The notes under the pieces were generated by a model. That model saw only the letters and a list, made by a program, of their open reading frames with translations, made no database searches and was not told the origin of the DNA. From Thermoproteus sp. (GTDB lineage Archaea; Thermoproteota; Thermoprotei; Thermoproteales; Thermoproteaceae), in NCBI GenBank assembly GCA_038893495.1, contig JAWARJ010000001.1:1911824-1975823 (forward strand): 64,000 bases of DNA, given 5' to 3'. This document shows positions 44,454 to 46,998 of the stretch, in pieces (position 1 is the first letter of the stretch; every line of letters begins with the position of its first letter). Both the position numbers and the translations under genes were made by a program.

Positions 44454-44846
44454 ATGGAGAGCCTTATCGAGAAGGCTCGAGAGGCGCTTAAAAACGCCTA
44501 TGCGCCCTACTCGAAGTTCAGAGTGGGCGCGGCGGTGTTGACTAAAAGCGGTAAGATATACACAGGGGCCAATGTGGAAAATGCCAGCTATGGCTTGACT
44601 GTATGTGCCGAGAGGGTCGCCGTGTTTAAGGCGGTGTCGGAGGGAGATAGAGACATAGAGGCAGTCGCCGTGGTTGTAGAGTCGGAGGAGCCCGTAGCTC
44701 CCTGCGGCGCATGTAGGCAGGTCATAGCGGAGTTCAACCCCAACGCGCTTGTGATAATGGCCACTGCAGACGGGAGGAAGGTAGTCACAGCCAACTTGAA
44801 GGACCTCTTGCCTATGGCCTTTAGGGGCGACGCGTTAAAGCCCTAG
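44454..44846 (+). CDS. cdd: Cytidine deaminase
   Basis: A 130-residue tetrameric-type cytidine deaminase: A-P-Y-S-K-F-R-V-G-A-A near the start, N-V-E-N-A-S-Y-G, C-A-E-R (Zn ligand Cys and catalytic Glu) and P-C-G-A-C-R-Q-V (two further Cys ligands). Converts cytidine to uridine in pyrimidine salvage. The 3' end overlaps the convergent moaC gene by 12 nt. Confidence 0.93.
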   Translation: MESLIEKAREALKNAYAPYSKFRVGAAVLTKSGKIYTGANVENASYGLTVCAERVAVFKAVSEGDRDIEAVAVVVESEEPVAPCGACRQVIAEFNPNALVIMATADGRKVVTANLKDLLPMAFRGDALKP

Positions 44847-45575
44847 CTCTATATAGGTGTTGGGGTACTGGCCCTTTTCGTCCTTCTCGTATTTCTTCAC
44901 CATATCCCATATCGCCAGTAGGGCCGTGCCTGTGGCGAATAGGGCCTCTAGGCTCGGCGAGGCGTCTCTGCCCTTCAGTACGACCTCCATAAAGACGTAG
45001 TCGCTCCCAACTTCTATCCTGCTATTGGCGTATTCCAGCTTGACGCAATCTATCGGCAGGATTTCGCAGAGCCTTTTGGCGTTGAGGGGAGCGGTTATCT
45101 TCGCCGCACATATCGGGTCTCCCTTCTCCAAGGCGCCTGACTTTATGGGCTCTGTCGAGGTCAAATGTATATATCCTGACGACCTAATTATGTAGCCTAA
45201 ATCGGGCCTCTCCACTTTAGCTGGGGGGGCCGGCCCCTCCTCCAACCTGAGCCCGACGCCTTTGACCTTGACGGCCACGCCCAACTTTCTTATGTCGGTG
45301 GCACCGGCCGCTATGGAGCCCACCAACGCGCCGAAAAGGGCGTCCATCTCCACGCCTGTCTTCCAGGTCGTCCACGCCTTGACCTCCACCAAGTCGTTCC
45401 CACATGTAGCTGAGGCGAATAGAGGTAGCGGATGTAGTAAGGGTATATACCTATACGCCGCCTTGACGGAACGGGGACCGTAGGCCAAACACGCACCTAC
45501 ATTCTTCACGTCGGCTATCGCGAAGCCTTCGGCGTACCTTTCGACGTCGCTTTTGGCGGATATGTCGACCATCAT
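44835..45575 (-). CDS. moaC: MoaC with internal duplication (cyclic pyranopterin monophosphate synthase)
   Basis: A 246-residue protein, against about 160 in E. coli. Residues 2 to about 125 match MoaC from the M-V-D-I-S-A-K start, through S-V-K-A-A-Y-R-Y-I-P-L-L-H-P-L-P and K-T-G-V-E-M-D-A-L, to T-D-I-R-K. By alignment this half keeps the counterparts of E. coli K51, H77, E112, D128 and K131 (E114 is Asp). Residues about 130-246 match MoaC again: E-K-G-D, N-A-K-R-L-C-E-I-L-P, S-L-E-A-L and I-W-D-M-V-K-K, but the His and first Glu are lost. It would form a fused dimer. Divergent from the ModE-like gene. Confidence 0.8.
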   Translation of the reverse strand: MMVDISAKSDVERYAEGFAIADVKNVGACLAYGPRSVKAAYRYIPLLHPLPLFASATCGNDLVEVKAWTTWKTGVEMDALFGALVGSIAAGATDIRKLGVAVKVKGVGLRLEEGPAPPAKVERPDLGYIIRSSGYIHLTSTEPIKSGALEKGDPICAAKITAPLNAKRLCEILPIDCVKLEYANSRIEVGSDYVFMEVVLKGRDASPSLEALFATGTALLAIWDMVKKYEKDEKGQYPNTYIELGL

Positions 45576-45643: not shown

Positions 45644-46078
45644 GTGCCTAATGACGTTAAGGTGAAGTACAGGATCTGGGTCGAGTGGAACGGCAACCAG
45701 ATCATAGGGCCGGGGATATACGATATATTGAAGGCCATCGACGAGACGGGCTCTATAGCTTCTGCCGCTAGGAAGCTTGGCTTTTCATATAAATTTATCT
45801 GGACATACCTAAAGAAATTAGAAGATATACTGCAAGTTCCTTTAGTCCAATCTAAGAGGGGTGGGCGCGAGAGGGGGAAGACCGAGCTGACAGAGATAGG
45901 GCAACTACTACTGAAACACTACGAAGAGCTGAGCGCCGAGATCAACAGGTTAATCCCCACCTGGGAGGCCAAATTCCAGGAGGTGGTGAATTCTTTAGAT
46001 AGATACAGGGCGGAGGTCGGCTCAGAGGGGAGCGAGGAAGGTGAGGAGGAACTTCCGTTCTACAGCGAGGAGGAATAA
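45644..46078 (+). CDS. ModE-like winged-helix regulator without molybdate-binding domain
   Basis: A 144-residue protein with the LysR/ModE-type winged helix: L-K-A-I-D-E-T-G-S-I-A-S-A-A-R-K-L-G (31-48) followed by Y-K-F-I-W-T-Y-L-K-K and R-G-G-R-E-R-G wing. The C-terminal third is acidic (many Glu) and there is no MOP domain, so metal sensing would need a partner. Between divergent moaC and convergent moaA it is the likely regulator of molybdopterin genes. The start is a GTG (45644). Its 3' end overlaps moaA by 19 nt. Confidence 0.82.
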   Translation: MPNDVKVKYRIWVEWNGNQIIGPGIYDILKAIDETGSIASAARKLGFSYKFIWTYLKKLEDILQVPLVQSKRGGRERGKTELTEIGQLLLKHYEELSAEINRLIPTWEAKFQEVVNSLDRYRAEVGSEGSEEGEEELPFYSEEE

Positions 46079-46998
46079 TGCACCTTAAATGTGGGCTCTC
46101 TGGCATAAACTACGCGCGCTACTATGTCGTATATCTTTTCGGCGTTTCTCTCCTTGATGGGGCCGTAGAGGTCCGCCGTAGCCTCTTTATATAGGCAAGG
46201 CTTAAGCTTACCGTCGCTTGTGAGCCTCATTGTGGTGCATCCAGCGCAGAAGTAGGGGTTGTTCCAATTCTTCACGATTTCTATGTTCACGCCGGCTAGA
46301 TTCAAGATGGGCCTGTTGTGTAGGTCCTTCCTAGTATAAACGGGCCTGGCGCCCATGCTCTCCAACATCTGAACCACGTCGTCTATTGGCGCATATAGGT
46401 CCCCGAACGCCTTAACTCCAAGGCCGACAGGCATGAGCTCTATCAATTGCACCGAGGCCCCCACCGCCGACGCGAACTTAAGTATTGACTTCAAGGAGCT
46501 CTTGTCGTCGTTTATGTCCTTCAGGACGACCACGTTTAATTTCACCTTCATGCCCGTCTTAGACGCGGCAATTATCCCGTCGACCACCTTGAAAAACCAG
46601 CCTTTAGGCACGCCGGTCACCTTAGAGAACTTAGCCGGGTCTGTCGAATGTAGGGATACATTTATCCTCCGGAGGCCCGCCTCGGCGAGCTCTACTGCCA
46701 TCTCGGCGAGCCTGAAGCCGTTAGTGGTCATCGAAATATCGACGCCGCTTCTGTTCATTTTCCTCACGATATCCACTACGTCGCTCCTCAGAAGGGGCTC
46801 GCCCCCTGTGATTTTGTAGTCCCGCACTCCCATCTTGGACAAAACATCTACGAGGAACCCGTAATCGTCGGCATCGAGGCGCCTCCCAATTCCTCTTTGT
46901 TGCCCTTCAAAATGGCAAAAAATACAGGAGAAGTTACAGACGTCATTTACGACGACTCTCAACTTGAGGAAAGGCCTCCCGAATTTGTCGAACAGCAC
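46060..46998 (-). CDS. moaA: GTP 3',8-cyclase (molybdopterin biosynthesis MoaA)
   Basis: A 312-residue radical-SAM enzyme making 3',8-cyclo-GTP, the substrate of MoaC. The SAM-cluster motif C-N-F-S-C-I-F-C is at residues 21-28, with T-G-G-E-P-L-L-R at about 67-74 and the second cluster ligands C-A-G-C-T-T-M-R-L and P-C-L-Y in the C-terminus. The terminal double glycine of some MoaA is replaced. It faces the ModE-like gene with a 19-nt overlap. Confidence 0.93.
   Translation of the reverse strand: MLFDKFGRPFLKLRVVVNDVCNFSCIFCHFEGQQRGIGRRLDADDYGFLVDVLSKMGVRDYKITGGEPLLRSDVVDIVRKMNRSGVDISMTTNGFRLAEMAVELAEAGLRRINVSLHSTDPAKFSKVTGVPKGWFFKVVDGIIAASKTGMKVKLNVVVLKDINDDKSSLKSILKFASAVGASVQLIELMPVGLGVKAFGDLYAPIDDVVQMLESMGARPVYTRKDLHNRPILNLAGVNIEIVKNWNNPYFCAGCTTMRLTSDGKLKPCLYKEATADLYGPIKERNAEKIYDIVARVVYAREPTFKVHYSSSL

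Follow-up and report, generated by a model that had tools for sequence, protein, structure and literature searches.

The gene for MoaC (cyclic pyranopterin monophosphate synthase) in the analysed window, a stretch of 64,000 nucleotides from Thermoproteus sp., encodes two MoaC domains in tandem within a single chain of 246 residues (44835-45575, reverse strand). The explanation that we favor, with a probability of about 0.86, is that this chain is a fused MoaC pseudo-dimer in which both halves contribute to one composite catalytic site, and in which the second site is dead. On the basis of profile matches, a residue census and an AF2 model, the N-terminal half was assigned to residues 1-115 (45231-45575, reverse strand) and the C-terminal half to residues 125-246 (44838-45203, reverse strand). 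In the numbering of E. coli MoaC, the H77/E112 side of the site is retained in the N-half, where helix alpha-1 and the K51 loop are missing and helix alpha-3 is short; the C-half has the K51/D128/K131 side and stops short of the K147 strand.

Profile PF01967 produced two separate matches on the 246-residue protein, with a score of 68.2 bits (gathering cut-off 27), and recognized each half alone above this cut-off: 29.7 bits (7.2e-07) for the N-half and 43.3 bits (4.6e-11) for the C-half. The NCBIfam equivalog profiles TIGR00581 and NF008999 also matched in both halves, with scores of 70.7 and 107.5 bits that fall below their cut-offs of 141.5 and 171, respectively. Judged by these scores, the protein is a divergent MoaC variant and not a standard equivalog member. 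When a profile of the N-halves of 14 tandem proteins was compared by hhalign with a profile of the 14 C-halves, the two aligned over 118 columns with an E value of 9.6e-18. BLASTP of the N-half against the C-half of the 246-residue protein detected no similarity (E 22), and a DNA repeat search between the halves detected none that was convincing. The fact that the halves align as profiles and not by BLASTP indicates that the duplication is genuine but old, and the evidence for it consequently consists of the profiles and the fold.

An AF2 model of all 246 residues, for which the input was an alignment of proteins from the window and from other retrieved loci, has a pLDDT of 96.2 and a pTM of 0.93; the latter value indicates that the placement of the halves relative to each other is predicted with confidence. 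Its N-terminal part consists of strands 11-21, 53-58, 62-71 and 94-105 and helices 26-37 and 76-89, and its C-terminal part of strands 129-137, 179-189, 193-203 and 241-245 and helices 142-146, 154-166 and 208-230. Helix alpha-1 is missing from the N-half set and alpha-3 is short, and the fold of the C-half is complete. A Foldseek search with the whole model matched the MoaC of S. tokodaii (1.1 A rmsd), and the identity of 42% shows that the matched part is the C-half. Residues 1-112 modeled alone gave a pLDDT of 94.2, and all 28 PDB matches of this model at E<=0.001 were MoaC, with TM values of at most 0.85 on the query. At E<=1e-5 the matches of both halves were exclusively MoaC structures. 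Canonical MoaCs were present in the alignments behind both models, and the predicted folds therefore depend in part on sequence homology. The view of the initial annotation that the 246 residues contain two MoaC-like modules is thus supported by PF01967, by hhalign and by the models; the C-half did not take on another fold, and the duplication stands.

The known MoaC site offers a framework for the residues of the two halves. In M. tuberculosis MoaC2, chain A contacts the ligand through Lys62, Asp137 and Lys140, and chain B through His88 (PMC3602415). Converted via E. coli MoaC, the first three become K51, D128 and K131, and the last becomes H77 on the opposite chain; the chain assignment taken from that work covers these four residues. 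We compared these and other positions in an alignment of 66 single MoaCs with both halves of each of 38 tandem MoaCs; 37 of the tandems come from the order and the remaining one from a different family of the class. K51, K67, H77, E112, D128 and K131 were present in 66/66 single MoaCs, a set that is biased to conserved motifs because it was retrieved by patterns from the 246-residue protein; the E. coli MoaC, chosen independently, has every census residue. The few missing cells of the N-half census are mostly due to truncated sequences.

In the 38 tandems, each catalytic position that is invariant in the single MoaCs was retained in at least one half. The N-half of the 246-residue protein has K8 (E. 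coli K21; 45552-45554), R13 (R26; 45537-45539), the catalytic histidine H48 (H77; 45432-45434), E76 (E112; 45348-45350), D78 (E114; 45342-45344) and K103 (K147; 45267-45269), all on the reverse strand. Counterparts of K21 were found in 36 of the 38 N-halves and in no C-half, those of R26 in 37 N-halves and three C-halves, those of E112 in all N-halves and no C-half, and those of K147 in 37 N-halves and no C-half. H77 was kept in all N-halves and also in 17/38 C-halves. The C-half contributes K151-G152-D153 (K51-G52-D53; 45117-45125, reverse strand) and D224-M-V-K227 (D128/K131; 44895-44906, reverse strand). The lysine of the former and the Asp and Lys of the latter were present in all 38 C-halves; among the N-halves K51 and D128 were never found and D53 in two. 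Position 114 does not segregate cleanly, being Asp in 38/38 N-halves, Glu in 35/38 C-halves and Glu in 64 of the 66 single MoaCs. The surviving set of the 246-residue protein is therefore K8, R13, H48, E76, D78 and K103 from the N-half together with K151, D153, D224 and K227 from the C-half.

In none of the 38 tandem proteins did either half alone have the full set K51, H77, E112, D128 and K131; it occurs once per chain, by combining both halves. As far as can be judged from the residues present, both halves are degenerate and reciprocally complementary, and the only complete set is drawn from both. Only the C-half has all chain A residues, and only the N-half has all chain B residues; this is the pattern expected of a fused dimer that kept one of its sites and abandoned the other. 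This split matches the known site, with K51, D128 and K131 on one chain and H77 on the other, and hence points to one composite site. The co-retention of K21, R26, E112 and K147 with H77 suggests that they lie on the H77 side.

These results bear directly on the initial annotation, which regarded the N-half as active, with its K, H, E, D and K counterparts kept, and the C-half as degenerate. The histidine, the glutamate and the aspartate at position 114 (H48, E76 and D78) are indeed present in the N-half, as are K8, R13 and K103, and the Glu-to-Asp change at 114 was correctly noted; counterparts of K51, D128 and K131 are absent. That of K51 went with the deletion of helix alpha-1 and of the loop that carries K-G-D. 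The residues taken as D128 and K131, namely D94 and K97, are offset by two positions in the alignment; in the AF2 model they come after helix 76-89 has ended, and close relatives carry other residues at the D94 position. The alignment agrees with the description of the C-half: E-K-G-D, A-K-R and W-D-M-x-K are retained, and the His and the first Glu are missing. A self-sufficient N-half accompanied by a structural remnant is nevertheless very hard to maintain, even though the counterparts of H77, E112, R26, K21 and K147 are retained: K51 and D128 are missing from 38/38 N-halves and invariant in 38/38 C-halves, and a mere remnant would not retain K51, D128 and K131 in all 38 proteins. In addition, the structure matches include 4pya, which is MoaC K51A with substrate bound, and 1eks, which is D128A; the deposition of these structures indicates that both positions are treated as key. 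After the residue census we therefore rejected a complete N-half. The same annotation also proposed that the protein is a fused pseudo-dimer in which each chain has a single catalytic site; the split residue set supports this, and catalysis would take place at the composite site.

The composite site could also be formed between chains, the N-half of one pairing with the C-half of another, so that the fusion would tether a larger oligomer and no simple pseudo-dimer would exist. Intrachain and interchain pairing are indistinguishable by sequence, and the linker joining the halves is short (about 20 residues in the 246-residue protein). We consider such a domain swap unlikely, however, because the single-chain model has both halves placed with a pTM of 0.93, and because the intra-dimer interface of MoaC is twice the inter-dimer interface (PMC3602415), so that fused halves are expected to pair first. 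Under the favored fused pseudo-dimer, pairing would be intrachain and unswapped, and three pseudo-dimers would assemble into a trimer that has three sites in all.

The genomic context indicates that the protein should be functional. The tandem is the sole MoaC in the complete genome of 1,995,394 bases, which also encodes MoaE and four molybdopterin oxidoreductases away from moaC. With molybdoenzymes present and no other MoaC, the cell should need a working tandem MoaC. Close to it lies moaA (46060-46998, reverse strand), identified by a domain search (radical SAM and Mob_synth_C), the product of which supplies the MoaC substrate. A C-terminal double glycine has been reported in bacterial and eukaryotic MoaA; the MoaA of the window ends in VHYSSSL and has none. 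Between moaC and moaA is a gene for a LysR/ModE-type winged-helix regulator (45644-46078, forward strand; PF00126, 3.5e-11), which may have a ModE-like role. On the other side, a cytidine deaminase gene (44454-44846, forward strand) is convergent with moaC, and the 3' ends of the two overlap by 12 bases (44835-44846). The MoaE (L138, G000:C1:955339-955677) sits in a frame of 259 residues, a length that would accommodate the MoaD-MoaE fusion reported in Thermoproteales. It could be argued that the protein has abandoned catalysis for a moonlighting function, or that its second site has turned into a regulatory site that binds a ligand, as one site has strongly diverged and a Cys pair and Cys-rich inserts (see below) occur on the dead side. 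This is improbable, given that the protein is the sole MoaC in a genome with MoaE and molybdoenzymes and that one full catalytic set is conserved across all lineages.

The search among other genomes of the order extended the split to the whole lineage. MoaC was found in 42 of 45 genomes, in the tandem form in all of these except G001 (family f2), which has a single MoaC of 157 residues. Outside the order, a 288-residue tandem with the same residue split, directly adjoining moaA, was found in G053, from another family of the class. No further tandems were seen among the matches listed for the phylum (329 genomes, 236 with MoaC; limit of E 0.001 per half). Extra MoaC matches in G244 and G330, outside the class, turned out to represent incomplete copies located on other contigs; a 605-residue frame in G090 is an upstream extension of an ordinary MoaC. 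Another genome of the class, G045, encodes a MoaC of 304 residues (L127, 166-1080) whose C-terminal domain reads like MoaB/MogA; it resembles the MoaC-MoaB fusions already catalogued.

Tandem moaC frames are broken in four genomes (G041, G012, G016 and G021). In the complete genome G041 (1,841,542 bases) the frame changes at the start of the C-half (L126, about 1000-1060), giving overlapping frames of 187 and 115 residues; sequencing error, true mutation and recoding are possible causes. Such broken frames, and the suggestion that frameshifts in syntenic blocks are a source of archaeal MoaC fusions (PMC11237513), might be taken to mean that assembly or frameshift artefacts have joined two adjacent moaC genes. 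The chance of this is negligible: over 30 genomes from different species, complete ones among them, have a single intact ORF, and two functional neighboring genes would each have the full residue set, which neither half has. Artefactual joining was rejected on account of these intact ORFs.

In the phylogenetic tree the N-halves form one clade (SH-aLRT 100), and the C-halves are on one side of a branch with moderate support (SH-aLRT 77). A single ancient fusion would suffice for this tree. The tandems of the Thermocladiaceae (Vulcanisaeta, Caldivirga and Thermocladium) have a total length of about 330 residues, with longer domains, and have not lost H77 and K131 on the dead side. Their N-halves carry K51L, D53N and D128N, and their C-halves K21E, R26G, E112A and A, S, T or N in place of K147. 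The Thermoproteaceae show further trimming of the dead side: their N-halves have neither alpha-1 nor the K51 loop and an alpha-3 without its end, and their C-halves no longer include the K147 strand. All 17 Thermoproteaceae sequences have two cysteines in the His loop of the C-half, at the dead site (C170-x6-C177; 45045-45068, reverse strand), which could form a disulfide. In the N-domains of the Thermocladiaceae (L004-L020), the segment that links alpha-3 to the last strand has a Cys-containing insert immediately behind the dead-site helix, with the pattern C-x3-C...C in Vulcanisaeta and C-x-C...C in Caldivirga and Thermocladium; it may form a metal site or a disulfide. Pyrobaculum-like C-halves have KGH in place of KGD.

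We propose that an ancestral moaC was duplicated in tandem and fused before the Thermoproteaceae, the Thermocladiaceae and one further family split. The fused chain would be a covalent MoaC pseudo-dimer that kept one of the two symmetry-related dimer sites, where K8, R13, H48, E76, D78 and K103 of the N-half would meet K151, D153, D224 and K227 of the C-half; this composite site would produce cPMP from 3',8-cH2GTP, the product of MoaA. The other site would have decayed from both sides, by loss of the K21, R26, H77, E112 and K147 counterparts from the C-half and of those of K51, D128 and, later, K131 from the N-half. Structures that served only the dead site would have been trimmed afterwards, namely the last strand of the C-half and, in the N-half, helix alpha-1 together with the final part of alpha-3; the dead-site His loop would also have acquired its conserved Cys pair. 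The living tandems probably represent a natural series in which a symmetric homodimeric enzyme became a pseudo-dimer that is obligately asymmetric and has a single site; a pseudo-hexamer would then have three sites. In such a series point changes would come first (K51L and D128N in one half; E112A, R26G and K147A in the other), followed by deletion of supporting elements and the gain of the Cys pair in the pocket loop.

MoaC fused "with itself" has been catalogued as cluster 625.1 in a survey of archaeal gene fusion and fission (mSystems 2024, PMC11237513), which very probably includes these tandem proteins. The survey considers MoaC self-fusions to be multiple independent events that are not restricted to specific groups and are possibly derived from frameshifts. 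Our tandems resemble those fusions in that MoaC is joined to MoaC in Archaea; they differ in that one origin fits, in being confined to three families among the genomes sampled, and in the reciprocal decay of the active sites. The literature searched, to which subscription papers mostly did not belong, contained no description of such decay in a fused MoaC. Hence, of the remark that no description was known, the part concerning the active-site split holds as far as found, and the part concerning self-fusion does not.

A whole lineage of hot-spring archaea appears to run its Mo/W cofactor pathway on a single-site, asymmetric MoaC. MoaC is near-universal and structurally symmetric; the tandem illustrates how a symmetric enzyme may become irreversibly lopsided, and its graded living intermediates how a fused oligomer loses one site. 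The split also amounts to an independent side assignment made by evolution, with K21, R26, H77, E112 and K147 facing K51, D53, D128 and K131 across the MoaC interface, which is checkable against existing structures. Moreover, the tandem allows mutagenesis of a single site, which is impossible in the homo-oligomer. Readings of the protein as an ordinary MoaC, or as one active and one dead domain, are corrected accordingly.

Canonical MoaC (PF01967, TIGR00581) is a homo-hexamer, a trimer of dimers, with its site at the intra-dimer interface; examples are the structures 1EKR/4PYD from E. coli, 2OHD from S. tokodaii and 4FDF from M. tuberculosis. The tandem shares with it the fold of both halves, all catalytic residues once per chain, the proximity of moaA and, presumably, a pocket between two MoaC modules. 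In contrast to canonical MoaC, each tandem chain contains two modules, one of the two sites of a dimer is intact, and E114 is replaced by Asp; helix alpha-1 and part of alpha-3 are absent from the N-half and the tail from the C-half, and the scores fall below the equivalog cut-offs.

Fused duplicates with one surviving composite site are known from other enzymes: the monomeric herpesvirus dUTPase, which has a trimeric ancestor, the eukaryotic-type chorismate mutase and the double hot-dog hydratases. As in the tandem MoaC, a homo-oligomer with interface sites has given way to a single chain that has fewer sites and whose halves are asymmetric, although the folds and pathways are unrelated. Unlike those enzymes, the tandem MoaC has intermediate stages that are still alive, in the Thermocladiaceae, with H77 and K131 on the dead side.
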